Assembly: GCA_034439615.1 (NCBI GenBank)
Contig: JAWXAT010000035.1
Location: 1-64,000 of the forward strand
Length of the DNA: 64,000 nt
Reading direction: 5' to 3'
Origin: Oligoflexia bacterium
GTDB lineage: Bacteria; Bdellovibrionota; Bdellovibrionia; JABDDW01
The position numbers were made by a program, and so were the translations under genes. Shown piece by piece: positions 7,253 through 41,400 of the stretch. The first letter of the stretch is position 1. Each line of letters begins with the position of its first letter. The notes under the pieces are model-generated. The model worked only from the letters and a program-made list of their open reading frames with translations. It was not told the DNA's origin and did not search any database.

Positions 7253-7699
7253 TAAACAAAAAACAAATAAGAATGGTTCTGTTTGGGATCTTACTCATTC
7301 CATCTTATGGGTTTAGTTCTAATGATGCTACCAGTGATACATTTCGATTTGTATGCACTAAAAGCAGTAAAAGCCCGCAATTGCAAATCACAGCTCACTA
7401 CACATTAACTTCAAGTAGTCTTACGGATGTGGCTATAAAAGGTGAGCGTGGTTTAAATTTATATCAAAAAATCGCTAATGCTGAATCCGGTTACAATCTT
7501 CGAAATCCACGCTTTAAAGAATTTTATCGATTTAATTTTACCCCCCTATAGACAGCGCGGAGCATATTACTATCTACTTTTGCCAAAGCGTATTTCATTA
7601 GTAGAGCGAGAATCATTTACTGGTTATTTTCTCAACGGTAATGAGAGTCGCGGGTTATCTAGTGTTACGCAATTAGTGTGCAATTTCTCGACAATTTAA
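7249..7699 (+). pseudogene. Small secreted protein, frameshifted at a C6 run
   Basis: The frame starts at an ATGA overlap with phnE, has a signal peptide (MVLFGILLIPSYGFSS) and stops at 7551 after 100 residues. Immediately at that point the +1 frame continues with similar character (YYYLLLPKRISLVERE, then SVTQLVCNFSTI) to 7699. Removing one C from the CCCCCC run at 7541-7546 joins the two into a single 149-residue secreted protein with one cysteine near each end, a plausible disulfide pair. Either the gene is broken, the run is a sequencing slip, or the run allows phase variation or frameshifting. I do not recognise the family. Confidence 0.6.
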
Positions 7700-7915
7700 C
7701 TCAAATTTCTTTCAATAAAAATTCTCATGTTTCCGGTCGTTCGGCCGATAGAGTTTTGTAGCAAAATGGTATGTCAGATTAATTTAAGTTTTATTGACGA
7801 AGTTTTTGACAGCCAAAAGAATGCTCGCTCTGAATGAATGTGGGATAGGTGCGTTTGACTAGCACCAAAGATAAGTGTAGCCTTAATATATAGGGATTAC
7901 TTTTTCAGGAGTTTT

Positions 7916-8758: not shown

Positions 8759-8823
8759 GCTGTCACAGTAAAATAGCGGTCATTTGCAGTATGTACACTC
8801 CGACCACACATAAATTGTTAAGT

Positions 8824-8845
8824 GCGAAGCTTTGTTTTGCTTCGT
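8824..8845 (+). promoter_or_regulatory. Hairpin abutting the ribosome-binding site of the VWA gene
   Basis: CGAAGC (8825-8830) and GCTTCG (8839-8844) form a perfect 6-bp stem with an 8-base T-rich loop, extendable by G-U pairs. The Shine-Dalgarno GGGGG (8846-8850) follows directly, so the hairpin could affect translation initiation or mark a processing site. It also argues against the GTG at 8822 as start codon. Confidence 0.4.
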
Positions 8846-8854
8846 GGGGGACAA

Positions 8855-9853
8855 GTGTTGAGGGGTTTACATATTCAAAAGCTAAAGTACTTACCTGCAG
8901 TTTTAACTGTGGTTGGGCTTCTTTTTAGCACTGCTTGTGGAACACCTGCGCAGTTTGGTCTTAATGAACAGACTGAATCATTTGGACAAGTTGTTACTTA
9001 CAATACTCAAGTCGACATGCTTCTTGTTGTTGATAACTCTGGCTCCATGGGAACAAAACAAACCCAACTCTCACAACAGCTTTTACCATTCATCGATTAC
9101 TTGGTTACAAGTGGTTTTGATTTTCGCATAGCAGTTACAACGATGGATATGAGTGGTAGCGGTGCAAGGGGAAGTTTTGTGGGTTCACCAAATGTACTTA
9201 CAAAATCAACTCCTGATCTTCGCAACGCATTTATTCGAAATATTTCACAGGGTACTCGAGGTAGTGATCTCAGCCGTGGATTAGAGGCTATGGCTTTTGC
9301 CATTAGTGATTCAAAACTTGCCGGTGAAAATTCTGGATTTTGGAGAAAAGAAGCATTACTTGCTGTTATTTTCCTAACTGACGAAGAAGATGCAAGTGCT
9401 AACAACACACAGTACTATATTGAGCTTCTTGATCAGAAAAAACCTTTATTTATTGGTGGGTCACGTGGCTGGCTTGCAAGTAGTATTGTTGTAAAAGAAT
9501 TAAGTCAGCAGTGCACTTCACTTAATCAATTTGCATCACCAGGTTATCGTTACGTAGGTTTATCTGATGCGAGTAATGGAATTATTGAATCGATATGCTC
9601 ACCTGATCTCATCCAAGCAAGTGCAAATATCAAAGCGCGCATCACTGAAGTACTCACACAATACCATCTAGCATCTGATGCAGATGTAGAGACAATTCGT
9701 ATTTTTATAAATGGAAAATTAATTGCAAATGATCCTAGCAATGGTTGGACCTACGATTCACGTGGATACACGATAACATTTCACGGGAGTTCTATACCTC
9801 CAGCTAATGCAAAAGTTCAAATTTCATATAAACCAAAAAAGGCTAGAGCATAG
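8855..9853 (+). CDS. VWA-domain lipoprotein of the envelope machine
   Basis: A GTG at 8855 (or the TTG right after it) behind GGGGG starts a 332-residue protein; the longer frame from 8822 has no ribosome site. A lipoprotein signal ends LLFSTAC (Cys28). The von Willebrand A domain begins at VDMLLVVDNSGSMG, with a complete MIDAS triad start D60-x-S62-x-S64 and a later TDEEDAS. A C-terminal region (~250-332) is beta-rich. VWA domains bind protein partners through a metal ion. Position at the head of a TolQR/TPR/FHA cluster suggests an outer-membrane component, with CglB of the Myxococcus gliding system as a possible analogue (inference). Confidence 0.8.
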   Translation: MLRGLHIQKLKYLPAVLTVVGLLFSTACGTPAQFGLNEQTESFGQVVTYNTQVDMLLVVDNSGSMGTKQTQLSQQLLPFIDYLVTSGFDFRIAVTTMDMSGSGARGSFVGSPNVLTKSTPDLRNAFIRNISQGTRGSDLSRGLEAMAFAISDSKLAGENSGFWRKEALLAVIFLTDEEDASANNTQYYIELLDQKKPLFIGGSRGWLASSIVVKELSQQCTSLNQFASPGYRYVGLSDASNGIIESICSPDLIQASANIKARITEVLTQYHLASDADVETIRIFINGKLIANDPSNGWTYDSRGYTITFHGSSIPPANAKVQISYKPKKARA

Positions 9854-9873
9854 GCCAGGCTAAGGGAGAAGTT

Positions 9874-10596
9874 ATGTTTAGCGAGTTTGGAAAATTTATT
9901 ATTGACGGTGGAGTAGCAGTATACAGCATGTTGTTGTTAGCTGGTTTCTCTGGTGCAATTATCTATGAAAGAGTCCAAGCTCTTTACTTTAGATACGGCT
10001 TAAAAACAGACGCTTTCTTGGCGCAAATTAAAGCCATGATTGTTGGCGATCGCATTGAAGAGGCGATTGCATTTTGTTCAGCACAAGGCCAAGCTCTGCT
10101 CCCAAAAGTAGTTAAGCAGATTCTTGAACGCTCAGACCGTGATGATGAGAGCATTAAAAACGCTCAAGATATTTCTACAATGGAAATTGTACCTTTGATC
10201 ACTCAACGTATGGGTTATCTGGTTATGGTGGCCAACGTTGCGACACTCATTGGTCTCTTGGGTACAATTCACGGTTTGATTCAATCATTCCAAGCTGTAA
10301 GTTTTGCTGACCCGGTACAAAAGCAAACATTACTTGCGCAAGGTATTTCAATTTCTATGAATACCACAGCTCTTGGTCTACTCGTTGCCATTCCTGTGAT
10401 GATTATTTACAGCTTTTTGCAAGCGCGCCAAAACAAGATGTTAGAAGATATTATTGGTGTGAGTGCCAAGGTAGTTGATCTTTTGATGTCTAGAAATTAC
10501 CACGCTTATGACGAAAACGCAGCCTTTGCACCAGGAGAAACAATTCCTCCTGTATCTAAAGTAGGCAATAGCTCAGCTAAACGTAAATCGGCTTAA
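9874..10596 (+). CDS. MotA/TolQ/ExbB proton-channel subunit (AglR-like)
   Basis: A 240-residue protein with three hydrophobic segments (about 12-30, 113-137 and 155-180) in the TolQ/ExbB layout and the family block GTIHGLIQSFQAV before the third helix. With the next two TolR-like proteins it should form a proton-motive-force-driven motor in the inner membrane that pulls on periplasmic partners. Pairing with two TolR-type subunits is the arrangement of AglR-AglQ-AglS in Myxococcus gliding motility. AAGGGAG precedes the ATG by six bases. Confidence 0.88.
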   Translation: MFSEFGKFIIDGGVAVYSMLLLAGFSGAIIYERVQALYFRYGLKTDAFLAQIKAMIVGDRIEEAIAFCSAQGQALLPKVVKQILERSDRDDESIKNAQDISTMEIVPLITQRMGYLVMVANVATLIGLLGTIHGLIQSFQAVSFADPVQKQTLLAQGISISMNTTALGLLVAIPVMIIYSFLQARQNKMLEDIIGVSAKVVDLLMSRNYHAYDENAAFAPGETIPPVSKVGNSSAKRKSA

Positions 10597-10605
10597 GGAG
10601 TAGAT

Positions 10606-11136
10606 ATGCGCATATCACGTTTTAGAGACAATGCAGCACATGCGACATTTGAGCTAAATTTGGCTCCGATGATGGATATGTTTGTTTCAATTATTCCTTT
10701 CATGATGCTTTCAGTTTCTTTTATGCAGATTATGCTCATCGATGTTCCATTGCCAGTTCCAGTGTCGCAAGCACTTGCGGATGATCGTGCACAAACAAAG
10801 CGAGAAGTTGCAATCAGCATTAAAATGGAAAACAAACTTGGTTTTGCCATTGATGTAAAAGATGAGCGGGGTCGTAACACGCGATTATCAGTAGGTAAAA
10901 TTGGATCTGATTTTGACTATGTTGGGTTACATAAAAAACTAGTTGAAGTTAAGCAGAGATTTCCAAAAGTTTTCAGAGTTGAGCTTAATCCAGATGACAG
11001 CGTTGATTATAAATCAATCGTTCAAGCCATGGATGCATCTCGAAGTATTGAAAAAAATGATCCAAAGATCATGATTGATAAAACTGAGTCACCACTTTTG
11101 TTTCCGGACGTAATTTTGTCCAATGTGATGGGGTAA
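10606..11136 (+). CDS. TolR/ExbD-like motor subunit, first copy
   Basis: A 176-residue protein with one membrane helix (residues ~22-46, MDMFVSIIPFMMLSVSFMQI) that carries the conserved aspartate (D24) needed for proton coupling in TolR/ExbD. The rest is a periplasmic domain. Nine bases separate it from the TolQ-like gene and AAGGAG supports the ATG. It probably forms a heteromeric motor with the next TolR-like protein rather than a separate machine, since both flank one TolQ-like gene. Confidence 0.85.
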   Translation: MRISRFRDNAAHATFELNLAPMMDMFVSIIPFMMLSVSFMQIMLIDVPLPVPVSQALADDRAQTKREVAISIKMENKLGFAIDVKDERGRNTRLSVGKIGSDFDYVGLHKKLVEVKQRFPKVFRVELNPDDSVDYKSIVQAMDASRSIEKNDPKIMIDKTESPLLFPDVILSNVMG

Positions 11137-11140
11137 GAGT

Positions 11141-11650
11141 ATGAATGCTGCAGTAAGAGCATTAAGGCAAAATCAAAGTGGAACATTTGCGCTTCAGATC
11201 ACAAGTATGATCGATATGTTCACTATTATTCTTGTTTTCTTATTAAAGAGCTATTCATCAAGCGTCGTTGATATGGCTCCTATGAAAGATCTTCGACTTC
11301 CTTCATCAACCGCAACCGTATCACCTGTAGAAGCGCTTAAATTGGCTGTGTCTAAAGACGGAATTTATGTTGATGATAAATCAATTGTAGTTTTTGAAAA
11401 CGGACAACTACCTAAGAGTGCAACTGACGCTTCTGATACTCGTTTTATTAAGCCGTTGTTTGAAGCGCTTAATACACTGGCGCAAAAATCAAAAAATATT
11501 GCTAAGCAAAATGAGAATGTAACGTTTGATGGAAAAATAGTATTTCAGGCTGATCAATCTTTGAATTATCAGCTGATCAAAAAGGTAATGTACACAGCTA
11601 CTATAGCCGGTTATAGCGATTTTAAATTCGCTGTAGTAGCGCAGCAGTAA
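11141..11650 (+). CDS. TolR/ExbD-like motor subunit, second copy
   Basis: A 169-residue ExbD/TolR relative with a single N-terminal helix containing the conserved Asp (TSMIDMFTIILVFLLKSY, D25), then a periplasmic domain ending in a TolR-like strand-helix (IKKVMYTATIAGYSDFKFAVV). It is clearly diverged from the preceding copy. The gap to that copy is only four bases. The FKFAVV ending is a usual ExbD C-terminus. Confidence 0.87.
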   Translation: MNAAVRALRQNQSGTFALQITSMIDMFTIILVFLLKSYSSSVVDMAPMKDLRLPSSTATVSPVEALKLAVSKDGIYVDDKSIVVFENGQLPKSATDASDTRFIKPLFEALNTLAQKSKNIAKQNENVTFDGKIVFQADQSLNYQLIKKVMYTATIAGYSDFKFAVVAQQ

Positions 11651-11659
11651 GGGACGGCG

Positions 11660-14620
11660 ATGAGACTTTTGTTTCGCTTGCCTACAATTCTAATTACTCT
11701 CCTGGCTCTAAGTCTTGTCAGTGGCTACGACTTTGCTTACGCGCAAAATAAATCTACTAACCTAAATGAAGAACTAAAATTAAATATCGGCGATGAAGTA
11801 GGTAATGAGATTAAATCGCTAAAAACTGAGCTGCTTATTAATAGCAATGATGAAAAAGCATTACGGCAACTCACAAAGCTTTTACAAAAATATAAAGGCA
11901 CCGCCCTCGAAGCCTCTCTTAATTTTCGATTAGCAGAGCTTTATATGAGACGCGCTAAAACAGCCCGGTTTTTTGAAATCCATAGAGATAATTCACAAAT
12001 CGTACACTTCACGCCAAAAGAAACTAAATCGGCATCAAGTCGTGGTTGGATCACCAAAGCAGTAGGTGTATATGACTTAATTGAAAAACGTTTTACCCAT
12101 TATCGCGATATGGATCTTGTTTTATTTAACAATGCATTTGCGCGCCAAATGATTGGTGAAGAAAAGCAAGCATTGATTCGTTATCGTAAAGTGATTACAG
12201 ACTTTGCTGAGTCAGCGTTAGTTCCAGATTGTCATCTAGCAATTGGTGAATCACTTTTTAATTCAAAGTCATTTCAAGCGGCATTTGATGAATTTCAAAA
12301 AATTAGACAGTTTAACGATTCACGAGTTTATCCATACGGCCTTTATAAAGCGGCATGGGCACTGTACAGCCTGCGTCGTACAGCAGAGGGCCTAAGTGTA
12401 TTAGAAGAAGTTGTTTCTTATTCAAAGCTTTTACCTTCAGAAGAGACGAGGAGTCGTCTTGATCTCACGCGAGAAGCGCTTGATGATATGGTCGTATTTT
12501 TTGAAGACGTAAAAAAACCTACTGAGGCTGTGAGTTACTTTCGAAAACAAGGTGGAGATGATAAAGCCGGTAATCTGTTATTAAAGCTTGGTAAAATATA
12601 TCAACGTCATTCACGTCATGGGCATCTTGAAATTGTATTTATAGATCTTCTTGATACTGTGCCGGGTACACCCGAGCGACCTGAGATACATCGAGATCTT
12701 ATTGAAAGTTTTGAAATTACAAAACAACGAACAAAAGCAGTGGTCCATTTAGAAACGCTATCAGATATTTGCCAAGAAAAAAGCAAATGGTCAAAACTTC
12801 AAAAAATTGAAATTCAAAAATCATGCTGGGAACATCTTGAGCAAACAGGCAAAAAATACGCAAGCAAATGGCATAAGGATTATAAGAAATCACCAAACGC
12901 TGAACTAGCGCATCTTACAGCACGTTCCTATGAATCATTGTTAAAGAATGAACAAAAAATTAGTGATGAAGACAAAACTCGTTTCAGTTACGCTGAGCTC
13001 TTATTTCAACAAAATGATTACCGTCGTGCAAGTTCTCAGTATTCAAAAGTTGCATATATCACCAAAGATCTCAAACTTCGTCACGACTCTTCATACGCAG
13101 CACTAGTGAGTGTTGAAAAAGCAGTGGGCGATAAATGGTCTGATTCTGATGAGCGTTTATTTGCAATCTTAGCACATGATTATATATCGCTTAATCCTAA
13201 AGGCCAGTTTCTCACCGATGTAAAATTCAAAAAGGCGTTTATTGCTTATGATAAAGGTCGTTACGAAGAAGCTGCGCCTCAGCTCAAAGATCTTGCACTG
13301 GGTTACAACAATTCAGAGCGCGGTAGAAAAGCTGCGCATTTATATTTAGATATTCTTAATATCCAGAAAAAATACAGTCAATTGCGCGATGAGAGTTTTT
13401 TGTTTGTACAAAAACTTACACTCGATGCGCCGATGAAGGCTGAGTTTATGAAGATATACCAGCAGGCATCATTTATTGTAATTCAAGATCTTGAATCTAA
13501 GGGTAAGTATCAAGAAGCGGTAAAAGGTTATATTAATTTTGTAAATGGAGATCCAAAATCAGTCCTAGCTGATAGAGCGCTATACAATGCTGTGCGTTCT
13601 GCTAATTTGGCTGGCGATTTACTTCAGGCTTCAAAACTTGGAGAGCGAGTAATTAAAGATTATCCACAATCCACTTACAAACTTGAACTTGCTCGAGCAC
13701 TGGTAACTCTTTATGAAGCGCAAGCTCAGCTTGGGCCCGCTGGGCAAATGCTTATTCGCCTTGCTGATTGGGATACAGAAAAAAGATTAGCTTATCTTCT
13801 CACAGGTGCAGATTATAAAGCGCTTAATAATGAGTGGGATAAAGCTGTTCAGATTTATCATCAACTTTCTTTGAAGGCTGGTAATAAAATAGAAGGTAAA
13901 ATCGCATTAGAACGGCTCGCTGGTTACAACGAGCGTTTTAATAAATGGGATAAATCGCGCAAAATATTTGAGCAACTTATCGAACTTAGAGTTCAGCCAC
14001 AGGCAAGTCTTGCTCTGTTAAAGTTAGTTTTGCATGCATACAATGTTGAGAAAAATAGTGAGAAAGCATTTAAGTTAGCAAAACAAGTTGTAAGCATGAA
14101 GAATGATGGCAAAGTTTCAACATACGCTTTGGCTCAGGCCCGTTTGATTCAAGGCAAAATATTAGAAGCAGAATTTGATATGGTTGGTGTAAAGGCTAGA
14201 CCTGAGCGACTCAGTTATGTTCTTCAAATTAAAACAGAAAAATTAGATAACGCGCAAAAGGCCTATCAAGAAGTTATTAGTTTTGGCGATAGACCCACAG
14301 CTGTTGAAGCACTTATTCGATTAGCAAAATGTTATGAAAAATTCTCCATTGCCATTCATTCAATTGAAGCCCCAGTTGATGCACCAGATGCTGATAAAAA
14401 GAAATTTTATCAAGAGCTCGACAATATGGCCATGCCTATTGAAGAGAAAAATGCTGAAACTTTACAGATAGCACTTAAACAAGCCAAAGATATTAAACTT
14501 CGAGATGGAAGTATTGGAAATATTCAAATGGAACTCAATCGTTTGTCGCGCCGAGCAGTCTCCAGCCGCATAGCTATAGATTTAACAACGCCTGAAAACG
14601 TTTTACCGATGGTGAACTAA
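11660..14620 (+). CDS. Large periplasmic TPR protein
   Basis: A 986-residue protein with a signal peptide (cleavage likely after SGYDFAYA, residue ~29) and repeated helix pairs of tetratricopeptide type almost to the C-terminus, e.g. FNNAFARQMIGEEKQALIRY, LLFQQNDYRRASSQYSKVA, KKAFIAYDKGRYEEAAPQL. TPR arrays are protein-binding scaffolds. Large periplasmic TPR proteins occur in Agl-Glt clusters next to AglRQS-type motors. GGGACGG lies just before the ATG, nine bases after the TolR-like stop, and the next gene starts immediately at the stop, so it belongs to one operon. Confidence 0.85.
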   Translation: MRLLFRLPTILITLLALSLVSGYDFAYAQNKSTNLNEELKLNIGDEVGNEIKSLKTELLINSNDEKALRQLTKLLQKYKGTALEASLNFRLAELYMRRAKTARFFEIHRDNSQIVHFTPKETKSASSRGWITKAVGVYDLIEKRFTHYRDMDLVLFNNAFARQMIGEEKQALIRYRKVITDFAESALVPDCHLAIGESLFNSKSFQAAFDEFQKIRQFNDSRVYPYGLYKAAWALYSLRRTAEGLSVLEEVVSYSKLLPSEETRSRLDLTREALDDMVVFFEDVKKPTEAVSYFRKQGGDDKAGNLLLKLGKIYQRHSRHGHLEIVFIDLLDTVPGTPERPEIHRDLIESFEITKQRTKAVVHLETLSDICQEKSKWSKLQKIEIQKSCWEHLEQTGKKYASKWHKDYKKSPNAELAHLTARSYESLLKNEQKISDEDKTRFSYAELLFQQNDYRRASSQYSKVAYITKDLKLRHDSSYAALVSVEKAVGDKWSDSDERLFAILAHDYISLNPKGQFLTDVKFKKAFIAYDKGRYEEAAPQLKDLALGYNNSERGRKAAHLYLDILNIQKKYSQLRDESFLFVQKLTLDAPMKAEFMKIYQQASFIVIQDLESKGKYQEAVKGYINFVNGDPKSVLADRALYNAVRSANLAGDLLQASKLGERVIKDYPQSTYKLELARALVTLYEAQAQLGPAGQMLIRLADWDTEKRLAYLLTGADYKALNNEWDKAVQIYHQLSLKAGNKIEGKIALERLAGYNERFNKWDKSRKIFEQLIELRVQPQASLALLKLVLHAYNVEKNSEKAFKLAKQVVSMKNDGKVSTYALAQARLIQGKILEAEFDMVGVKARPERLSYVLQIKTEKLDNAQKAYQEVISFGDRPTAVEALIRLAKCYEKFSIAIHSIEAPVDAPDADKKKFYQELDNMAMPIEEKNAETLQIALKQAKDIKLRDGSIGNIQMELNRLSRRAVSSRIAIDLTTPENVLPMVN

Positions 14621-15559
14621 ATGAAGTACTTAGTTTTGGTTTTTGCATTATTGGCTGTACAGATTTTAATGACGGGTTGTTCATCAACTCAGACGCAGCC
14701 ACAATACGATGCAAGGGTATCTGAAGCGGCATATGTTTACAAAAAATCAATTCAATCCATTACCATGGCTGAGGTAAAATCAGATCTTTGCACTAAAAAT
14801 GCTGGTAAAATTAAGGCTCAATGGAATTGGAAACAAGCTATCGAAGTAGCTGATAGCTGTATGAAGACACGTCAATTTGCAATGGCTGAAGAAATTGGAA
14901 ATGAACTCTCTACTCGAGAACCAGCAGGGCCATGGGGGCCGTATTTCTTAGCGAGTGTTGCTCGTGAACGCGGTGAGCTTGAGCGAGCTCTATGGATGAG
15001 CGAACTTGCAATGAAGCGTGCTCATGAAGTTGGGATTTTACATTATCTAAGAGCGCAAGTTTTATGGGATAAAAAAGAATACGGTGCAGCAGTTGCCAGT
15101 TTTGAGAAAAGTACTGAGCTTGATTCTTCCATTGTTCCAGCGCATCTTTTCTTAGGGCAAATTTATTATCGTGATCAAGATTATACCGCTGCTTCAAAAC
15201 ATTTTTATGCGGTATTAAAAATAATTCCGAGACATCCAATAGCGCTTTCTGGTCTGGCTGAAAGTCAGTTGAGAGAAAATAATGTTCAAGGGGCCCTAGA
15301 TGCCTACTCAAGACTTGCTGATTCTTATTCAAACGACGGCTTGTATTTAGCTCGCATTGGTGAAATCTATGAAACTGTCTTGCACGATATTCCCAAAGCA
15401 TTAAGTGCTTACAGAAAATTACACGGCCTCATTCAAAGTGGTCGCATTACTAAAAATAGTGAAATTTCACTTGATGCAAAGATCAAAGAATTAGAACTCA
15501 GCACTCAAGAAAAGAGAACTCTGGCAGCCTCCGACGAGAAAGGAAGTCAGATTAAATGA
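14621..15559 (+). CDS. TPR lipoprotein of the envelope machine
   Basis: A 312-residue protein with lipoprotein signal (ILMTGC, Cys20, followed by Ser, so outer-membrane sorting is expected). TPR motifs follow from ~residue 90, e.g. LRAQVLWDKKEYGAAVASFEKS and LGQIYYRDQDYTAASKHFYAV. It resembles small TPR lipoproteins of gliding-type clusters such as GltE (inference from architecture and neighbours). Its ATG directly abuts the TAA of the large TPR gene, and its stop overlaps the next start by four bases. Confidence 0.83.
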   Translation: MKYLVLVFALLAVQILMTGCSSTQTQPQYDARVSEAAYVYKKSIQSITMAEVKSDLCTKNAGKIKAQWNWKQAIEVADSCMKTRQFAMAEEIGNELSTREPAGPWGPYFLASVARERGELERALWMSELAMKRAHEVGILHYLRAQVLWDKKEYGAAVASFEKSTELDSSIVPAHLFLGQIYYRDQDYTAASKHFYAVLKIIPRHPIALSGLAESQLRENNVQGALDAYSRLADSYSNDGLYLARIGEIYETVLHDIPKALSAYRKLHGLIQSGRITKNSEISLDAKIKELELSTQEKRTLAASDEKGSQIK

Positions 15560-32177: not shown

Positions 32178-32711
32178 GTGCCAGTACAGAATACGACAAA
32201 TAATATTCAAATTGAAGTGAACCCAAATGACATGGATCAAATGTTAAATACAGGGGTTCTCACGACTAAGGCCCAGCAGTTTATTAGTTGGGGAAGAAAA
32301 AACGCACTTTGGCCACTCCCTTTTGGTACTGCCTGTTGCGGAATCGAATTCATGTCAGTTGTTGGACCTCGCTATGACGTTGCTCGTTTTGGTGCAGAGG
32401 TTGTTAGGTTTTCTCCTCGCCAAAGTGATCTGCTTATTGTCGCAGGAACCATTACTGAAAAAATGGCACCTGTACTTAAACTTATCTACGATCAAATGCT
32501 CGACCCTAAATGGGTTTTGAGTATGGGAGCTTGTGCTTCGAGTGGCGGTTTTTATCGTGCATACCATGTTCTTCAGGGAGCAGATAAAATTATTCCAGTT
32601 GATGTTTATGTCCCCGGGTGTCCACCGACTCCTGAAGCTGTTATAGATGGCATTATGAAAATTCAAGAACTCATTGGCTCAGGTAAAAAACGTTCCTACG
32701 CAAGATCATAA
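32178..32711 (+). CDS. nuoB: NADH-quinone oxidoreductase subunit B (NuoB)
   Basis: NuoB carries cluster N2, the last Fe-S centre before quinone in complex I. The four ligand cysteines are in place: TACCGIEF (tandem), [10 protein letters not shown] and [10 protein letters not shown]. 177 residues is normal. A GTG start follows AAAAGGT. It opens an eleven-gene operon with overlapping or near-contiguous frames to 41400. The 212-base leader holds a hairpin GAGTTA-AAAA-TAACTC (32031-32046) and a TATATAAG -10-like box near 32139-32146 without a good -35. Confidence 0.96.
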
Positions 32712-32724
32712 GTAAAGGGTAGAA

Positions 32725-34404
32725 ATGAAAGAGATTTTAAAAAGAATCCAAGAAGATCTATCGCGAAATTTTCAACAGGAATTGAAATTTTCAGAATCCT
32801 TTGGCGATTTTGTAATCAACTTTCCCAAAGAAAAAGTTGTACCCTTGATGAAGTATCTTAAAGAGCGCCATAAATTTGATTTTATGCTCGATCTCTGCGG
32901 CGTTGATTACCCCAATAGAACAAAACGATTTGATGTGGTTTATCACCTCTATGCTCCGTCTACAAAAGCCCGTGTGCGCCTAAAGACTGAAGTTGGTGAA
33001 AATGAAACCATTGATTCTATTTGCACTGTTTGGAAGGGCGCAAATTGGTTTGAGCGTGAAGCTTACGACATGTTTGGTTTGATATTTAAAAATCATCCCA
33101 ATTTAAGAAAACTTCTCACCCATCAAAATTTCGTTGGTCATCCGTTAAGAAAAGATTACGACGCCAATCATCAGCAATCGACAAATTCAGTTGAACCTAT
33201 TTGGTTTAACCCGGATCCAGAATATAAATTTGATCCTGAAAAACCGTTGGTGCCGATTAATATTGGCCCAAGTCATCCGGCAACACACGGCACACTTAGA
33301 ATTATGGCAGAGCTCGACGGAGAAACTGTCACTCGCTGTAACGTGGAAATTGGTTATCTTCACCGCTGTTTTGAAAAAATGGCTGAGACACATCTGTATA
33401 ACCAAATTATTCCATACACAGATCGTTTGAATTACTGCTCAGCTCCTATGAACAATGTTGGTTTTTGTAAAACAGTTGAGCGTATGCTTGATGTTGAGCT
33501 TCCACCAAAAGCAATTGCCATGAGAGTAGTACTCTCTGAACTTTCCCGTGTGATTGATCATCTGGTTTGCATTGGTACCAACGCTGTTGATTTGGGTGCA
33601 CTCACTGTTTTTTGGTATATCTTTGAACAGCGCGAACGGGTTTACACTTTGTTTGAAAAACTTTGTGGTGCGCGCCTCACAGTAGCACTCACACGTATTG
33701 GCGGGATGGCTTATGATAATCCTCCTGGCTGGGAAAAAGAATGTCTTGAGACCGTAGCTGGAATCAAAAAAGCTGTTGAAGAATTAGACAATCTTCTCAC
33801 AGAAAATAAAATTTTTATTGGCCGTACACAAGGTGTTGGGAAAATCTCAGCTGAAGACGCCATCGCATACGGCTACACAGGCCCCTGCTTACGCGCAAGT
33901 GGTGTTAATTTAGATTTAAGAAAAGCTGAACCTTATTACGGTTATGATCAACTTGATTTTGATGTTCCCATCGGAACAAACGGCGACACCTATGATCGCT
34001 ATCTTGTTCGTATGGAAGAAATGCGCCAATCACTTAAAATCGTCGAGCAAGTTTGTAAAAACATGCCCGCAGGTGATTACACAATTCGCGATAAAAATAT
34101 TGTATTGCCTGACAAAAAAGATGTTTGGGGAAATATCGAAGGTCTGATGAATCACTTCATGCTTGTCATTAAGGGTGTGAGACCTCCGGTTGGTGAAATT
34201 TATGATTACACCGAAGCCGCAAATGGTGAGTTGGGTTTTTATCTCATCAGCGATGGTGGCCCCAAACCGTATCGCTTAAAAGTGCGACCGCCGTGTTTTC
34301 CGATTTATCAATCTTTCCCCGCGATGATGAAGGGCTCCTATGTGGCCGACGTTGTTGCGGCTCTGGGAAGTCTTAATATTGTAGCTGGAGAATTAGATCG
34401 ATGA
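32725..34404 (+). CDS. nuoCD: Fused NADH-quinone oxidoreductase subunits C and D (NuoCD)
   Basis: 559 residues combine NuoC (to about 155; WFEREAYDMFGLIF and HPLRKDYD) and NuoD (from ~178; INIGPSHPATHGTLR with the quinone-site His). Further NuoD blocks are IPYTDRLNYCSAPMNN, ELSRVIDHLVCIGTNAVDLG and the C-terminal LNIVAGELDR. The C-D fusion is known from many bacteria. Cys ligands of the hydrogenase ancestor are absent, as usual. The stop overlaps nuoE by four bases. Confidence 0.96.
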   Translation: MKEILKRIQEDLSRNFQQELKFSESFGDFVINFPKEKVVPLMKYLKERHKFDFMLDLCGVDYPNRTKRFDVVYHLYAPSTKARVRLKTEVGENETIDSICTVWKGANWFEREAYDMFGLIFKNHPNLRKLLTHQNFVGHPLRKDYDANHQQSTNSVEPIWFNPDPEYKFDPEKPLVPINIGPSHPATHGTLRIMAELDGETVTRCNVEIGYLHRCFEKMAETHLYNQIIPYTDRLNYCSAPMNNVGFCKTVERMLDVELPPKAIAMRVVLSELSRVIDHLVCIGTNAVDLGALTVFWYIFEQRERVYTLFEKLCGARLTVALTRIGGMAYDNPPGWEKECLETVAGIKKAVEELDNLLTENKIFIGRTQGVGKISAEDAIAYGYTGPCLRASGVNLDLRKAEPYYGYDQLDFDVPIGTNGDTYDRYLVRMEEMRQSLKIVEQVCKNMPAGDYTIRDKNIVLPDKKDVWGNIEGLMNHFMLVIKGVRPPVGEIYDYTEAANGELGFYLISDGGPKPYRLKVRPPCFPIYQSFPAMMKGSYVADVVAALGSLNIVAGELDR

Positions 34405-34880
34405 CACAAAAGTCAGAGTTACCTTTAAAAAGTAAAACTTATATTCAAAAAGAATTAAAGCGTTACGAAGTGCGTGAGTCAGCATTAATACCTGCACTTT
34501 TTGAAGCGCAAAAAGTATTTGGGCATATCACACCTGAGGTCATCGATATTTTGGCTATGGAAATGGACATCCCTCAAGCACGGATTTCTGAAGTGGCAAA
34601 TTTCTACACGATGTTTAATAAAAAACCTGTGGGCAAATTTCATATTCAAGTTTGTACAAACATCAGTTGTGCCATGGTCGGTGCTCGAGAAACAATGGAT
34701 TATATTTGTGAAAAAACAGGCAGTAAGCCTGAAGAAATTAGTAATGATGGGCGATTCACCGTTTCAGCAGTTGAATGTTTGGGTTCATGCGGAACAGCTC
34801 CTATGGCACAAATCAATGATGAGTATCATGAGAATTTAACTCATGAAAAAATCGATAAATTATTGGAGAAGCTTAAATAA
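34401..34880 (+). CDS. nuoE: NADH-quinone oxidoreductase subunit E (NuoE)
   Basis: A 159-residue thioredoxin-like 2Fe-2S subunit. The N1a cysteines are seen in CTNISCAMVGA and AVECLGSCGTAPMAQIN, and the N-terminal helical block ESALIPALFEAQKVFGHI is typical. It forms part of the NADH-oxidising module with NuoF and NuoG. Overlaps: four bases with nuoCD, one base with nuoF (TAATG). Confidence 0.95.
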   Translation: MTQKSELPLKSKTYIQKELKRYEVRESALIPALFEAQKVFGHITPEVIDILAMEMDIPQARISEVANFYTMFNKKPVGKFHIQVCTNISCAMVGARETMDYICEKTGSKPEEISNDGRFTVSAVECLGSCGTAPMAQINDEYHENLTHEKIDKLLEKLK

Positions 34881-36169
34881 TGGAAACAAAACTTCTCTCT
34901 GAACATTACGAAAATCCACAATTTGTAACCCTTGAAGGCTACAAGAAAAACGATGGCTACACGGCCATTAAAAAAGCATTCAAGATGAAGCCTGAAGAAG
35001 TAATTGCGGAAGTAAAAGCCTCAGGGCTTCGCGGTCGCGGTGGTGCTGGTTTTATGACGGGTATGAAATGGGGATTTTTACCTAAAAATGATGAACCTCG
35101 TTATTTACTTTGTAATGCTGATGAAGGAGAGCCAGGCACATTTAAAGACCGCATGATGATGGAGCGTGCTCCCCATCAATTAATTGAAGGCATGATCATT
35201 TCAGCTTATGCAATTTCATCTAAAAAATCTTACATCTATATTCGCGGTGAATATTATCACTGTTACAAAATTATTGAAAAAGCACTTCAAGAAGCTTACG
35301 ACGCAGGTTATTTGGGTAAAAATATTTTAGGTTCAGGTTTTGACCACGATATGGATGTATACCGAGGCGCTGGTGCCTACATCGTCGGTGAAGAGACAGC
35401 CCTTATCAGTTCTCTTGAAGGTAAAAAGGGTCAGCCAAAATTAAAACCGCCATTTCCTGCTGTTAAAGGTTATTTAACTAAACCTACAATTGTTAACAAT
35501 GTTGAAACTCTTGCAACGGTTACTTGGATTCTCAATAACGGTGCTCAAGCTTTCAGAAAATATGGCACCGAAAAATCAACAGGTTCAAAACTTTATTCAG
35601 TCAGCGGAAATGTGAATAAACCAGGTGTTTATGAGGTTCCACTGGCTTATCCATTTAAAGATCTTTTAGAAAATGAATGCGGTGGGATGAAGCCTGGCTA
35701 TAAATTAAAAGCACTCATTCCTGGAGGGCCATCGTGTCCGGTGCTTACTGCTGAAGAAGCCATGCGTGCCACCATGGATTACGAATGCATGCAGACAATG
35801 GGTTCAATGCTGGGCTCAGGTGGTGTTATTGTTATCGATGACAAACAGTGCATGGTGGATCTGCTCTCAATATTGATGAAATTTTATCATCATGAAAGCT
35901 GTGGGCAATGCACACCTTGTCGCGAAGGCACAGGCTGGCTTGAAAAATTAACTACATCTATTGGTACCGGAAAAGCAAAATTAGCAGAAGTAACATTACT
36001 CGACAAAGTGGCTAGGCACATGATGGGTACAACAATTTGTGCCTTGTCTGATGCAGCGGCTATGCCTGTTATAAGTTTTGTCTCAAAGTTTCGTGATGAG
36101 TTTGAATTTCATATTCACGAGAAGCGTTGCAAAGTGAAGGGAACATGTCATGCCCAAAATCACCATTAA
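34880..36169 (+). CDS. nuoF: NADH-quinone oxidoreductase subunit F (NuoF)
   Basis: A 429-residue flavoprotein that oxidises NADH. The NADH/FMN region reads GLRGRGGAGFMTGMKW, LLCNADEGEPGTFKDR and the YRGAGAYIVGEETALI block. The N3 4Fe-4S motif is SCGQCTPCREGTGW plus a later Cys in GTTICALSDAA. The stop lies 20 bases inside nuoG, a tight coupling. Confidence 0.96.
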   Translation: METKLLSEHYENPQFVTLEGYKKNDGYTAIKKAFKMKPEEVIAEVKASGLRGRGGAGFMTGMKWGFLPKNDEPRYLLCNADEGEPGTFKDRMMMERAPHQLIEGMIISAYAISSKKSYIYIRGEYYHCYKIIEKALQEAYDAGYLGKNILGSGFDHDMDVYRGAGAYIVGEETALISSLEGKKGQPKLKPPFPAVKGYLTKPTIVNNVETLATVTWILNNGAQAFRKYGTEKSTGSKLYSVSGNVNKPGVYEVPLAYPFKDLLENECGGMKPGYKLKALIPGGPSCPVLTAEEAMRATMDYECMQTMGSMLGSGGVIVIDDKQCMVDLLSILMKFYHHESCGQCTPCREGTGWLEKLTTSIGTGKAKLAEVTLLDKVARHMMGTTICALSDAAAMPVISFVSKFRDEFEFHIHEKRCKVKGTCHAQNHH

Positions 36170-37646
36170 CGATCAAACCGTCGAAGTCCCCAATGGATGG
36201 ATGGTTATTCAGGCAGCACAAAAATTAAATATTCCCATTGCTCACTACTGTTGGCATGAGGGCTTGAGCATCGCTGGTGCTTGCCGCATGTGTATGGTTG
36301 AAGTTGAGAAAATGCCAAAACTCCAAGTGGCCTGCAATACTCCCATCACTGATGGAATGATTGTTCGTACAGATACTGAAAAAGTTAAAGACGCTGTTAA
36401 ATGGGCCCTTGATTTTCATTTGATCAATCATCCACTTGATTGCCCAATTTGTGATCAAGCCGGTGAGTGTAAACTTCAAGACTATTACATGACCTATGGT
36501 CTTTACACACCTGAGATGAATCAGGATAAAGTTAAAAAAGAAAAAGTCATCGGTTTAGGTGATCGCGTTGTTTTAGATCAAGAGCGTTGCATTCTTTGCT
36601 CACGTTGCGTGAGATTTACGTCAGAAGTTTCTAAAACTCACGAACTCGGTATTTTTAATCGTGGTGATCGAAGTGTTATTGGCACATTTGAAAATCGCCC
36701 GCTCAATAATAATTACAGCGTAAATACCGTTGATATTTGCCCTGTGGGAGCACTCACGAGTAAAGATTTTAGATTTAAACAACGCGTTTGGTTTTTAAAA
36801 GAATTTGATTCCGTTTGTAATCGGTGCTCCACAGGTTGCAATGTGACTGTTAGCTATAATCAAAATGGCGTTTTCAGAGTAAAACCAAAAGTAAATCACG
36901 AAGTAAATGGCTTTTGGATGTGTGATCTAGGACGCGATGTTTATAAACACACCAATAAAGAATACCGTCTTGATCAGGTTGTTGAAAAAAATCATGAGTT
37001 AGGGGGAGCCTCAGTTAAAGGTAAACCCGTAGCTCAAGCGATTCAAGAAATCGCAAAGAGTATGAAAAATCACATTTCTCAACATGGTTCTGAAAGTGTA
37101 GCCATCGTCTTAACAGCTCAATACACTGTTGAAGAATTAGAAACCTTTGTTGAGTTTTTCAGTCAGAAATTAAAAGTAAATCGATTTTACTACTGGAAGA
37201 ATAACGAAGAGTCCTTTGATGCATTTGACGGACTATTACTCAGGGGCGATAAAAATCCTAATACCAATGGCCTCATGAAAGTAATGTCGCAGCATAAAAT
37301 TAAAGGGTCATGGCAAGATTTTGAAAAAGCAGTCGCTAGTGGTGAAATAAAAATGACTGTTGTTGCGGGCCCCGAAGATCAAGAGGTCTATTCTGATTTA
37401 GAGGCTAAATTACCTGTATTTAAAAAAGCAGGTGAAATGGTTTGGCTCACGAGTTGTAAGAATGAAAAATTTAATGATTTTAAATGGCAAATCCCCATGA
37501 AGAGTTTTGTTGAAAAAGAAGGAACTTTTGTAAACTTCAAAGGAATTGAACAAAAAATTAAAGCCGGCGTAAAAATTATTCCAAGTGCCATTTCATTAAA
37601 AGAAGTGGCCGCAGGCTTGAAAGAAAGTATGGGAGTAGCTCAATGA
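36150..37646 (+). CDS. nuoG: NADH-quinone oxidoreductase subunit G (NuoG), short form
   Basis: The N-terminal 2Fe-2S domain (IAHYCWHEGLSIAGACRMC), the His/Cys ligand of N5 (DFHLINHPLDCPICDQAGECKLQ region), N4 (CILCSRCVRF) and a complete N7-type motif C-x2-C-x3-C-x27-C (CNRCSTGCN to WMCD) are present. The molybdopterin-oxidoreductase-like C-terminal part is much shorter than in E. coli (498 residues against about 900) and shows no cofactor site. AAGGGAAC precedes the ATG. Overlaps nuoF by 20 bases and nuoI by four. Confidence 0.93.
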   Translation: MPKITINDQTVEVPNGWMVIQAAQKLNIPIAHYCWHEGLSIAGACRMCMVEVEKMPKLQVACNTPITDGMIVRTDTEKVKDAVKWALDFHLINHPLDCPICDQAGECKLQDYYMTYGLYTPEMNQDKVKKEKVIGLGDRVVLDQERCILCSRCVRFTSEVSKTHELGIFNRGDRSVIGTFENRPLNNNYSVNTVDICPVGALTSKDFRFKQRVWFLKEFDSVCNRCSTGCNVTVSYNQNGVFRVKPKVNHEVNGFWMCDLGRDVYKHTNKEYRLDQVVEKNHELGGASVKGKPVAQAIQEIAKSMKNHISQHGSESVAIVLTAQYTVEELETFVEFFSQKLKVNRFYYWKNNEESFDAFDGLLLRGDKNPNTNGLMKVMSQHKIKGSWQDFEKAVASGEIKMTVVAGPEDQEVYSDLEAKLPVFKKAGEMVWLTSCKNEKFNDFKWQIPMKSFVEKEGTFVNFKGIEQKIKAGVKIIPSAISLKEVAAGLKESMGVAQ

Positions 37647-38167
37647 GCGTAGTCAAAAGGCCGAGTGCAAAATCAAAGTGGTACCTCCCAGGTATTCTCA
37701 CTGGTATGGCCATTACAATGAAGCACATGATTTTTAATCTCACGCACAGAAAAGATATCTTTACTATTGAGTACCCTGAAGAAAGATATCCCTACAGTGA
37801 TCGCTTTAAAGGGAATCATATTCTCACTGTTAAAAAAGATGGTTCACTTCGTTGTACGGCTTGCATGTTGTGTGCGACATATTGCCCAGCAGAATGTATT
37901 TCAATTACTGCGGCTGAGCATGATGATCCTAATGTTGAAAAATATCCTATTTCATATGAAATCGATATTTTGCGATGTGTATTTTGTGGGCTTTGTGAAG
38001 AAGCTTGCCCCGTGGATGCGATTCGCATGGGCCCTGAGCACCAAACAGCAGCTATTGCTGGAGAAAATTTCATCTATGATATCAATCGCCTCGCGTATCG
38101 ACCACAACTCAAGGGTGGAACTTTGAGTAAGGTAGATGATGAGGAACGTCGTAAGAAAGGCCTATGA
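37643..38167 (+). CDS. nuoI: NADH-quinone oxidoreductase subunit I (NuoI)
   Basis: A 174-residue ferredoxin-like subunit with two 4Fe-4S motifs, CTACMLCATYCPAECI and CVFCGLCEEACPVDAI (N6a and N6b), linking NuoG to NuoB. FTIEYPEERYPYSDRFKG is the usual pre-cluster block. It completes the peripheral arm. No nuoA, H, J, K, L, M or N follows; a second Nuo-like set begins at an ATGA overlap instead. Confidence 0.95.
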   Translation: MSVVKRPSAKSKWYLPGILTGMAITMKHMIFNLTHRKDIFTIEYPEERYPYSDRFKGNHILTVKKDGSLRCTACMLCATYCPAECISITAAEHDDPNVEKYPISYEIDILRCVFCGLCEEACPVDAIRMGPEHQTAAIAGENFIYDINRLAYRPQLKGGTLSKVDDEERRKKGL

Positions 38168-38649
38168 GCTGGCTGACAACGCGGTATGAAACCATTGTCA
38201 CACGTCTTGAAAACAAACATCACTTTCCTTGGGTAATGTCAGAAGGTTGTTGCACAACTGAATTAGAAAATGCAGGGCTGGCAACATACGACTGGCAACG
38301 ATTAGGTGTTGATGACATTGCCACAGACCCAAGTCAGTCTAACCTTCTTCTCATTGCTGGATGGATCAACGAAAAACGCGCTGAAGAAATTAAATTTATC
38401 TACGATCAAATGCGAAAACCAACATCTGTAATTGCTATTGGAGCATGTGTACTTTCAGGCAGCCCCTATAGTTTAACACGCAATAAATCAGAGGTCATCA
38501 GGGCGTCTGATCTTGTTCCTGTCGACATTAATGTTGTGGGTTGTCCTCCAAGACCTGAGGCTATTTTATCTGCGATACTAGAATTGCAGAAAAAACTAAA
38601 ACCCGGTCCGTCCGCTAGAGAGGTCTTACATGAAGCCCTCCGAGGTTGA
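38164..38649 (+). CDS. NuoB / group 4 hydrogenase small-subunit-like protein
   Basis: A 161-residue NuoB paralogue clearly different from the copy at 32178. All N2-type ligands are kept: SEGCCTTELE (tandem Cys), GACVLSGSPY and VVGCPPRPEA. SNLLLIAGWINEKRAEEIKFIYDQM matches the NuoB core. Its ATGA overlap with nuoI places it in the same operon. It is expected to hold a proximal 4Fe-4S cluster next to the NuoD-like subunit encoded two genes on. It could derive from a membrane-bound hydrogenase or an Ehr-type complex. Confidence 0.85.
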   Translation: MSWLTTRYETIVTRLENKHHFPWVMSEGCCTTELENAGLATYDWQRLGVDDIATDPSQSNLLLIAGWINEKRAEEIKFIYDQMRKPTSVIAIGACVLSGSPYSLTRNKSEVIRASDLVPVDINVVGCPPRPEAILSAILELQKKLKPGPSAREVLHEALRG

Positions 38650-38911
38650 TTTTAATGAAGTAACTGTTCAAAAGCCAATTGAGGTGAATATCAATGAGCT
38701 CACCGCCTTTTTAAAAAAATGGCGCGTAGAACATGATGTGAGTAGTTATCTGGGTGCTATGATGACGACAAAAGGAATGCTGATATTATTATTTTCTCCG
38801 CGTTTTAATAAAGACATCGCTTTTTTAGTTATCGGATCAGAAGCTTCAAAAGCTTTAACTCGAACATTTGAAACCTTAGAACTCGTCATGCCAGTGCAGG
38901 GAGTTTATTGA
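38630..38911 (+). CDS. Small subunit in NuoC position, unrecognised
   Basis: A 93-residue protein (VNINELTAFLKKWRVEHDVS, then GMLILLFSPRFNKDIAFLV). Order B-x-D-I suggests it replaces the NuoC-like subunit, but the NuoC signature ExEREAYDMFG is missing and it is far shorter than NuoC. It overlaps its upstream neighbour by 20 bases and the next gene by four, so it is very probably expressed. Function beyond a complex component cannot be stated. Confidence 0.7.
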   Translation: MKPSEVDFNEVTVQKPIEVNINELTAFLKKWRVEHDVSSYLGAMMTTKGMLILLFSPRFNKDIAFLVIGSEASKALTRTFETLELVMPVQGVY

Positions 38912-39951
38912 TGTTAGATTCAATCAATGCCTCATTAGCATATGATGGTGATCTGATTGCTTCTGTTCAAATTAAGCGCGGTGCAAATATTCGCCCACTA
39001 TGGGCCAAGATGGAATCCCTTCACCCTGAACATATGATTTTATGGGCTGATCGATTTGATAGTCTGTGTCCGATCGCAAGTGAATGGGCACTTTGCCAAG
39101 CGCTTGAAGCTTCAGCAAAAATTAAAATTCCGAAACGCGCACAGTTTGTGCGCACCATATTGTGCGAGATCAATCGACTTGTATGGCTTACGACTTACCT
39201 GGGCCGTTTTACTCATGCTTTAGGTCAACGTGGTTTGACTCAACATGCTCTTCTTTTACGTGAACAAGTTTATCAAAGACAAGAAGAGCTCACCGGTGGA
39301 AGAATTCTTCCTCAAGCGTTTAATTTGGGTGGATGTCGTCGAGAGCTTGCTATTGGTGATGTGCAAAAAGTTAGACAATTCATTCAGGGCTTAAGATTTT
39401 CATGGGAGAAATGGCTCAATCTTGTAGCCGATGATCCGCTCGTACGTAGTCGTCTCACTGGGTTACTCGTGATTCCTCATGAATATATCGAGCGCATGTC
39501 TTGGTGGGGAGTAGTGGGTAAGGCGGGTGGTGTAAATTACGATAGTCGTCGCCATCGTCCTCATGGGGCTTATCCTTTTATTGATTTTACAATTCCTACA
39601 CGTAGTGCAAGCGATGCACATTCTCGCTTTGAAGTTGCGATAGATGAAATTAATAATAGTCTTTCGATTATTGAAAACTTGTTGCGCATAATTCCATCAG
39701 AAATTGAACCTACTCCTGAGTATAAAACTTTCTCTCCAGGTTTTTATTTTGGCTCTGCTGAATCAGCAAAGGGGCCTGTGATTAGTGCTCTTGAAGTTAC
39801 AGATAAGGGTGTCATCGCTTCGGTTAGACTCTTTACTTCGGGTCAAAGAGTGTGGCCCACTATCGATGAGATGTTTGAAGGTACAAGAGTCGAAGATTTT
39901 CAATTGGCATTAGCATCTTTAGGATTAGATCCTGAGGAGGCTGAACTTTGA
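38908..39951 (+). CDS. NuoD / hydrogenase large-subunit-like protein lacking nickel ligands
   Basis: 347 residues align in blocks with NuoD: RTILCEINRLVWLTTYLGRF, RILPQAFNLGGCRRE, GGVNYDSRRHRPHGAY and NSLSIIENLLRIIP. The RR-x-RP-like element is closer to group 4 hydrogenases than to NuoD. The nickel-binding CxxC pairs are not kept: the N-terminal site reads SLCPIASEW (second Cys replaced) and the C-terminus ends GLDPEEAEL where hydrogenases have DPCxxC. The quinone-site HGTLR of NuoD is also absent. Hence it is probably neither a hydrogenase nor a standard quinone-reducing subunit. Overlaps both neighbours by four bases. Confidence 0.82.
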   Translation: MMLDSINASLAYDGDLIASVQIKRGANIRPLWAKMESLHPEHMILWADRFDSLCPIASEWALCQALEASAKIKIPKRAQFVRTILCEINRLVWLTTYLGRFTHALGQRGLTQHALLLREQVYQRQEELTGGRILPQAFNLGGCRRELAIGDVQKVRQFIQGLRFSWEKWLNLVADDPLVRSRLTGLLVIPHEYIERMSWWGVVGKAGGVNYDSRRHRPHGAYPFIDFTIPTRSASDAHSRFEVAIDEINNSLSIIENLLRIIPSEIEPTPEYKTFSPGFYFGSAESAKGPVISALEVTDKGVIASVRLFTSGQRVWPTIDEMFEGTRVEDFQLALASLGLDPEEAEL

Positions 39952-40397
39952 TCATGCGTTTAAGTCGTATCATTGCAAATCGCCTCAAAGCACTTAGCCA
40001 AGAACCATCAGCTACAGTTGAGTTTCCGTATGCGATTCGACATGCACCGCAAGGTGCGCGGGTGAGTTTACGAAATAATTTTTCAGAATGTATAGGGTGT
40101 CTTAAGTGTGAAGCTGTATGCCCTGTTCAGTGTATCGATATTACTTCTGAGAATTTTCCTACTCAAGAAAAAGTTCCTCGCACATCAAAAGGCGTTTTGT
40201 TTGAAAAGCGAGTCACAAGTTATGTGATTGATTTTAATCAATGTGTGAATTGTGGTTTGTGTGTTGGAATTTGCCCAACGGGTAGTTTAACCAACGAGCG
40301 CACCTTTATTACCCCAAGACAAGATGAGCGCCATTTAAAAATAGACCTTGTTCATCGCCCACGTGCCTTGAGAAAAGATCAAGGTTATGAAGATTAA
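39948..40397 (+). CDS. NuoI-like ferredoxin with two 4Fe-4S motifs
   Basis: A 149-residue protein with CIGCLKCEAVCPVQCIDI and CVNCGLCVGICPTGSLT, the paired motifs of NuoI and hydrogenase ferredoxin subunits. It differs strongly from the NuoI at 37643. It probably wires electrons to or from the NuoB-like cluster of the second set. Its stop overlaps the next start by 11 bases. Confidence 0.88.
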   Translation: MIMRLSRIIANRLKALSQEPSATVEFPYAIRHAPQGARVSLRNNFSECIGCLKCEAVCPVQCIDITSENFPTQEKVPRTSKGVLFEKRVTSYVIDFNQCVNCGLCVGICPTGSLTNERTFITPRQDERHLKIDLVHRPRALRKDQGYED

Positions 40398-41400
40398 TCT
40401 TTATCCGTTTGAGAAGCTTGAACAACATAAATTCAATCTTCGTGAAAAATTACATATTCCTGAGAATGTGCAAATTGAAGTTGCTCTTGATCTTGTACAC
40501 GGACTCAATGAACTGACACGTTCAGTAGCGCAACTTCATCCGCATAAAATTTCTATCGCTATTTTAGGGCCTCAACCACAACCCATAAAAGATATTATTA
40601 AAGGTTTTAGTACGGAAGGGTTTGTGATTCAGGAACTTCCTGTTTCATTTATGAATCCAGATGAAAAACCATTAGCGGAAGCCTGGGAAAAATTAAAAAA
40701 AGACACACTTTTTGTATTGGGTTCTGCGGTAGAACCACTCACAGGTTGCATTTATCCTTTTGAATGGATTCGGCGTGAAGCGCCTAAGAAAAATATTTTT
40801 TCACTCATGTATTATTCTCCTGATGCTTTAAAGAAAAAATTTATCCTACCAAGTACTCCTTGGGAGGGAATAGTCGCTGATCCACTTTGGGATGAAGAGC
40901 ATACATTGTCGTTGGTCTTAAAAGGTGAGCGTTGTCAGGGTGAGGGGTTACTTTGGGGAGTTGTGCATTTCTCTGAAGAAGGTATTAAGCTATTAGGTGA
41001 TACGCTTATGTCAGGCCGAGGTGAAGAATCGTCTCAAACTGAAGATAAAACCTTGGTACAAAGATTTGAAAAAGATCTAAGTAAATCATTAAACAATACG
41101 GTTGTTTTGTTACCCGACGCGTGTGCGAGAATTTTTGATCGAGCTGTATTATTTATCAATGGAGTGAATGGTGATGCGTTGTTACATAAACTCAAAGAAT
41201 TAGGTTTTGAAACAATGACGGGTGCAGCTTGTAGTTGGAACAGCCCCTATTTGAATAACTGGCTTCCACCAACAGGTATTAGTATAGAAATGGTGCAAAC
41301 TAGTCTGATTGTTCCACTCAAAACACTTCATAATGCTGCATTTTCAACACAGCTTTTAAAGTGTGTCTCTGAACTTCGTAAAATTTCTAATTTCAAATAA
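40387..41400 (+). CDS. Diverged cysteine-desulfurase-like (class V aminotransferase fold) protein
   Basis: 337 residues; no assignment is obvious at first sight. The C-terminal half follows NifS/IscS: FINGVNGDALLHKLKELGFE, then GAACSWNS, matching the desulfurase GSACSSGS loop with its active-site Cys (Cys282 here). Upstream, LLWGVVHFSEEG and SGRGEESSQTED match the GALYVRRG and GGGQERGLRSGTEN-type blocks. Aligning backwards without gaps places Lys179 (LVLKGERC) at the PLP lysine of the GHK motif. The N-terminal start differs from normal desulfurases. It is the last gene of the complex-I operon, overlapping the NuoI-like gene. It may be catalytic or a PLP-fold scaffold (inference). Confidence 0.55.
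   Translation: MKINLYPFEKLEQHKFNLREKLHIPENVQIEVALDLVHGLNELTRSVAQLHPHKISIAILGPQPQPIKDIIKGFSTEGFVIQELPVSFMNPDEKPLAEAWEKLKKDTLFVLGSAVEPLTGCIYPFEWIRREAPKKNIFSLMYYSPDALKKKFILPSTPWEGIVADPLWDEEHTLSLVLKGERCQGEGLLWGVVHFSEEGIKLLGDTLMSGRGEESSQTEDKTLVQRFEKDLSKSLNNTVVLLPDACARIFDRAVLFINGVNGDALLHKLKELGFETMTGAACSWNSPYLNNWLPPTGISIEMVQTSLIVPLKTLHNAAFSTQLLKCVSELRKISNFK

Follow-up and report, generated by a model that had tools for sequence, protein, structure and literature searches.

The Nuo-type complex I shares a superfamily with the group 4 [NiFe] hydrogenases and with the Ehr complexes, which lack nickel ligands. It has long been interpreted through a few charged quinone and proton residues, whose roles we take here from published work (PMC10212512). 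Known 11-subunit complexes without NuoEFG use other electron donors (PMC11238625). Here we describe a stretch of 64,000 nucleotides from an Oligoflexia bacterium of the class Bdellovibrionia (contig JAWXAT010000035.1, positions 1 to 64,000; hereafter the window), in which a complex I operon continues into a second, divergent set of nuo-like genes, B2, C2, D2 and I2. Together with seven membrane genes of the same genome, A2 to N2, these very probably represent a second complex I paralogue, an eleven-subunit copy in which nearly all of these charged residues appear to be replaced. With moderate confidence, we read it as a conserved companion to the canonical complex I that would be redox-active without pumping.

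A second subunit set in the window operon

The operon at 32178-41400 comprises nuoB, nuoCD, nuoE, nuoF, a short nuoG and nuoI, followed by B2, C2, D2, I2 and a further gene, Y (Table 1). From nuoCD onward, nearly all of its open reading frames (ORFs) abut or overlap, and from nuoI to Y every neighbouring pair overlaps. NuoE, F and G are present once, inside the canonical set, and the second set has no NADH module of its own. Searches with NCBIfam hidden Markov models (HMMs) matched B2 to NuoB (4.6e-36), D2 to NuoD (4.6e-45) and I2 to NuoI (5.6e-16). The ORF coordinates and these scores agree with an original prediction, made from the window alone, that nuoI is followed in overlapping frames by further NuoB-, NuoD- and NuoI-like subunits and a protein of 93 residues, and the overlaps make the coexpression with nuoI that it proposed likely. 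Scans of the window for promoters and terminators remained at or below the shuffle expectation and, at the membrane locus described below, terminators were about one standard deviation above it; in neither case were the two sets separated. The window NuoG (36150-37646) has 498 residues, and its C-terminal molybdopterin-type domain was matched weakly and partially.

The second membrane arm

Two features had escaped the original prediction: the window operon lacks membrane subunits, and the membrane arm of the second set is encoded on another contig. In the same genome, nuoL, M and N lie on contig C31, where the canonical nuoA-H-J-K-L-M-N genes occupy positions 7762-15378 of locus L039. Directly upstream of this nuoA are seven extra membrane ORFs (1994-7749) of 110, 304, 132, 92, 429, 375 and 482 residues, which we named in order A2, H2, J2, K2, L2, M2 and N2; the end of N2 is separated from nuoA by 9 bases. 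The original prediction had seen the second set as fused into the complex I operon, whereas we find it to be one half, the peripheral one, of a further complex I that has seven membrane genes of its own. A hybrid lacking its own membrane arm was set aside on finding A2-N2, and the proposed hybrid is not supported in that form; a hybrid or heterodimer of the second with the canonical complex may still occur.

H2 matched the Pfam family NADHdh (NuoH; 1.7e-7), as did H2 in three genomes in all, and the best alignment of N2 was to NuoN (hhalign 4.6e-7). K2 gave a weak match to Oxidored_q2 (NuoK; 0.0055), below the cut-off. In the window genome, B2, D2, I2, H2 and N2 are identified by similarity, and the evidence for J2 and C2 is moderate to weak. 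A comparison of membrane-gene profiles pooled over all lineages was uninformative, the sequences being too diverged; profiles split by lineage and bridged through family f26 (see below) gave the matches for H2 and N2. We also attempted to identify M2 from an AlphaFold2 (AF2) model, but discarded the result, as the predicted local distance difference test (pLDDT) was 45 and the Foldseek matches were meaningless. The density of charged residues within hydrophobic stretches showed no useful difference.

Occurrence in Bdellovibrionia and in tandem loci

The soluble block after nuoI recurs in eight Bdellovibrionia genomes: three that share the window's family and order (G000, G001, G002), three from family f11 (G270, G271, G272; in G270 spread over short contigs), one from f2 (G132, in which neither C2 nor Y is recognisable) and one from f9 (G222, B2-C2-D2-I2-Y; L131/L048/L181). 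Seven of the eight, from three families, have the seven extra membrane ORFs upstream of nuoA, compared to none of the nine block-less genomes examined, where the gene next upstream of nuoA is a large mfd-like ORF (Fisher p ~4e-4, uncorrected for kinship between genomes). The second set is absent from most Bdellovibrionia. In the NuoB tree, the lineages with the block branch off first within the class, so that later loss in the remainder is likely.

Outside the class, the top score of the D2 profile was to f26, a family of another class. Here the second set stands in tandem with the canonical one: mfd is followed by A-B-C-D-H-I-J-K-L-M-N and then by a canonical operon from A to N, including E, F and G. 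Family f24 has the same arrangement; the seven genomes in which we read it comprise six of f26 and one of f24. In a search of Bdellovibrionota, 31 of 369 genomes had a second-set NuoD (families f23, f24, f26 and f27). The f24/f26 second set is less diverged than the window type, and all 11 subunits are present in profile comparisons, the membrane subunits matching their canonical counterparts (A 1.5e-7, H 1e-29, J 3e-12, K 2e-8, L 6e-7, M 6e-63, N 3e-60). It also connects to the window family, where H2 matched its H (6.8e-9) and N2 its N (6e-11).

In trees, the window-type D and B proteins form one clade each (support 100/100 for D, 92/99 for B), whose sister is the f24/f26 second set, not the canonical proteins encoded in the same operons; long branches make this placement unsure, so that the trees support it without proving it. 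Most simply, an ancestral tandem of two complexes would have been cut, in Bdellovibrionia, into one cluster for the soluble and one for the membrane subunits, each with both copies. As both halves stayed with the matching canonical halves through this split, stoichiometric co-expression is likely.

Lost and retained residues

We compared functional residues between canonical sets, the tandem second sets and, as control, three ordinary 11-subunit sets from within the phylum, numbering L, M and N after G000 and A, H and K after E. coli. The canonical sets keep all compared residues, and so do the ordinary 11-subunit sets, except for the lysine in transmembrane helix 7 (TM7) of NuoM (K227), which is Leu. 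This Leu, in L045, L046 and L047, may be real or reflect a local alignment shift.

In the f24/f26 second sets, the replaced residues are E151, K235, H260, K348 and K404 in NuoL; E136, K258 and E400 in NuoM, with Arg for K227; E142, K226 and K256 (mostly Arg) in NuoN; E36 and E72 in NuoK, mostly by Gln; D79 and E81 in NuoA; and E157, E216 and E218 in NuoH. At many positions structural charges persist, whereas the catalytic residues are uniformly replaced. The corresponding charges are also missing from N2, H2 and K2 of the window lineage, to which the comparison there extends, L2, M2 and A2 not being reliably alignable. The His of the HGTLR motif, the Tyr and the Asp of the quinone site are gone from all seven D2 and all seven f24/f26 NuoD proteins, and the latter carry conserved GPYHxxLPGPxRL and DRLDP motifs where the quinone site was.

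By contrast, the cysteine ligands of the iron-sulphur clusters N2, N6a and N6b, 12 in all, are retained throughout in Bdellovibrionia: the CC, GxC and GCPP motifs of B2 in eight of eight genomes and both four-cysteine motifs of I2 in seven of seven. The f24/f26 second sets keep the NuoI cysteines in seven of seven cases and those of NuoB in five of six.

The original prediction had inferred intact N2 ligands and a missing HGTLR motif from the window, and both observations are confirmed. It had also pointed to the absence of CxxC nickel sites from D2; we found none either, yet this is uninformative, because every NuoD lacks nickel ligands. Its conclusion that D2 is not a hydrogenase, and not a classical subunit for quinone reduction either, is borne out by the HMM ranking and the residue comparison.

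Judged from these residues, pumping and canonical quinone chemistry have very probably been lost in the f24/f26 sets, and probably also in the window lineage, where L2, M2 and A2 are unaligned. In the mechanism we propose, B2, C2, D2 and I2 would form the peripheral part of a complete, 11-subunit paralogue lacking NuoEFG, its membrane arm being encoded beside the canonical membrane genes. It would retain clusters N6a, N6b and N2, but neither the site of quinone protonation nor the proton path. Without the latter two it should not be a quinone-driven proton pump, and with an iron-sulphur chain deprived of both it cannot be a classical complex I.

Weighing the interpretations

Several observations speak against a conserved, redox-active companion of complex I. 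The L2 and M2 of Bdellovibrionia match no Nuo profile significantly and the matches of A2 and K2 are sub-significant, for which reason A2, K2, L2 and M2 are identified by order, length and hydrophobicity; nor can the seven membrane genes be aligned between lineages, their number, order and lengths being what agrees. The f24/f26 second sets retain the TM12 lysine of NuoN (K404, kept or Arg) and, as Arg, the TM7 residue of NuoM, and in a single f26 genome (L051) the CC of NuoB is replaced by CGC. C2 is not recognisable in G132, and G222 lacks the second membrane arm beside nuoA, its genes being possibly located elsewhere or lost. The ratio of nonsynonymous to synonymous change (pN/pS) of L2, 0.81, fits relaxed constraint, and the uncertain tree placement belongs on the same side.

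The pN/pS values between G000 and G002, which are rough as synonymous sites are near saturation, are 0.11-0.25 for the canonical subunits, 0.26 for B2, 0.31 for I2, 0.43 for D2, 0.57 for C2 and 0.45-0.81 for the second membrane genes. Roughly, they suggest that the genes of the second set are constrained but fast-evolving.

How the companion would act is less certain. Inherited with the canonical complex and made in step with it, probably by co-expression, it would most economically be explained by heteromeric pairing. We put forward, tentatively and at somewhat less than even chances, that the two complexes are physically paired, the second being a structural, regulatory or electron-branching twin. 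In its stronger form, an obligate heteromeric complex I in which a working pump is joined to a regulatory or electron-branching twin, dead for pumping and for quinone but keeping its iron-sulphur wire, this idea is rather unlikely. The genes present, their order and conservation, the lost residues and the kept cysteines are observed directly; the assembly, cluster loading, co-expression, pairing and function of the second complex are what we infer from them. Should the twin pair with the real enzyme, the result would be a heteromeric complex I, of which we know no earlier case, and searches of the open-access literature turned up no report of a second complex I stripped of these residues. The second set would also be a natural experiment, setting the parts of complex I needed for assembly and electron transfer apart from those needed for pumping only.

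The main rival to pairing is an independent, non-pumping electron-transfer complex that passes electrons from a soluble donor, such as ferredoxin, to some acceptor, with the D pocket remodelled for another substrate. The retained iron-sulphur chain and the exchange of the quinone site for a conserved motif in f24/f26 NuoD would suit such a complex, as would the precedent of the 11-subunit complexes fed by other donors (PMC11238625). However, no donor gene accompanies the second set, which occurs in constant linkage with the canonical operon, ordered and split in the same way, and we consider an independent complex unlikely.

Less probable still is a relic, an old second complex I with little function that is slowly decaying. 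Its very fast sequence change, the shortened L2, M2 and C2, pN/pS values reaching that of L2 and its absence from most Bdellovibrionia could all be so explained. Decay is difficult to reconcile, however, with eleven or twelve ORFs kept in order across families at <30% identity, with the 12 of 12 retained cluster cysteines and pN/pS of 0.26-0.57 for B2, C2, D2 and I2, or with the uniform replacement, in f24/f26, of catalytic residues beside retained structural ones.

That B2-C2-D2-I2 are alternative subunits of the canonical complex, replacing B1-CD1-I1 or standing beside them, is suggested by the overlap of B2 with nuoI and by G222, which has the block without a membrane arm beside nuoA; it appears very improbable given the dedicated membrane arm in seven of eight genomes and the self-contained 11-gene complex of f24/f26. 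Finally, we reject the reading as a [NiFe] hydrogenase of group 4 or a relative of Ehr type, to which the common superfamily and the absence of nickel ligands from D2, as in Ehr, might point, because D2 scores 4.6e-45 for NuoD against 0.029 for nickel hydrogenase, falls inside Nuo and not with HyfG in a tree that held no Ehr sequence itself, and comes with a Nuo-like subunit set (A, J, K, three antiporters).

C2, Y and other nuo loci

The original prediction had left the 93-residue protein unrecognised. The ORF exists, and by position and a weak alignment to NuoCD (hhalign E 0.0043 over 58 columns, the best among eight canonical subunit profiles) it is probably a short NuoC. Its AF2 model (pLDDT 74) had NuoC/NDUFS3 and MbhK chains among non-significant Foldseek matches (E ~0.1), and the evidence for a shortened NuoC core is suggestive only.

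Y, a degenerate cysteine-desulfurase-like protein, matched IscS/NifS profiles at residues 54-134 and 211-314. In its family the catalytic cysteine is not invariant and the pyridoxal phosphate lysine was not located; the invariant residues are His53, Arg248, Asp251 and Arg252. In many Bdellovibrionia Y follows nuoI or precedes a recO-like gene. Homologues occur in 45 of 80 named loci, most of them without the soluble block, which weakens the candidacy of Y as a dedicated subunit of the second complex. Y is an older neighbour of nuoI, not specific to the second complex and not necessarily a subunit; it may be an assembly helper.

Elsewhere in the phylum, two ordinary 11-subunit operons (L045 and L046, in G163 and G134) are preceded by two ORFs of ~650 and ~350 residues resembling a 2-oxoacid:ferredoxin oxidoreductase pair, which suggests a ferredoxin-fed complex I in some Bdellovibrionaceae. 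Family f12 (L207, L208, L210, L211) has NuoB-C-D-I as an isolated cluster of four genes, the stretch read containing no further nuo genes, and L116 and L149 have NuoCD as two separate ORFs, split or frameshifted. L099 (CALQIT020000018.1), titled Streptomyces griseus, holds a Bdellovibrionia-type nuo locus and is probably mislabelled.

Table 1. Genes of the complex I operon in the window.
Gene	Description	Position	Strand	Evidence
nuoB	Canonical complex; first gene of the operon	32178..32711	+	ORF list, HMM
nuoCD	Canonical complex; quinone-site residues intact	32725..34404	+	ORF list, HMM, residue comparison
nuoE, nuoF, short nuoG	Sole NADH module beside both sets	34401..37646	+	ORF list, HMM
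nuoI	Canonical complex; overlaps B2	37643..38167	+	ORF list, HMM
B2	Second NuoB-like protein; four N2 [4Fe-4S] cysteines all kept	38164..38649	+	HMM, motif check
C2	93 residues, in NuoC position; probably shortened NuoC (30 kDa) core	38630..38911	+	Position, hhalign, AF2/Foldseek; suggestive only
D2	NuoD-like; lacks quinone-site His, Tyr and Asp and nickel ligands	38908..39951	+	HMM, alignment
I2	NuoI-like ferredoxin; both four-cysteine motifs kept	39948..40397	+	HMM, motif check
Y	Degenerate cysteine-desulfurase-like protein of 337 residues	40387..41400	+	Profile matches

Comparison with known complexes

With the group 4 [NiFe] hydrogenases and Ehr complexes, the second set has the superfamily in common, whereas its sequence, tree position and subunit set are of Nuo type. 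It resembles the 14-subunit complex I (NuoA-N) in its homologous subunits, in the ligands of N2 and N6 and in gene order, but it lacks NuoEFG, and the quinone site, the E-channel acids and nearly all antiporter Lys and Glu residues are replaced. Like the 11-subunit complex I of Desulfitobacterium hafniense, it consists of A, B, C, D, H, I, J, K, L, M and N without an NADH module, and the same clusters, N6a, N6b and N2, are predicted in both (PMC11238625). The known 11-subunit complexes, however, keep the features of the quinone site and proton path that are replaced in the second set (PMC11238625), which, unlike them, invariably accompanies a canonical 14-subunit operon and is split in two in Bdellovibrionia.
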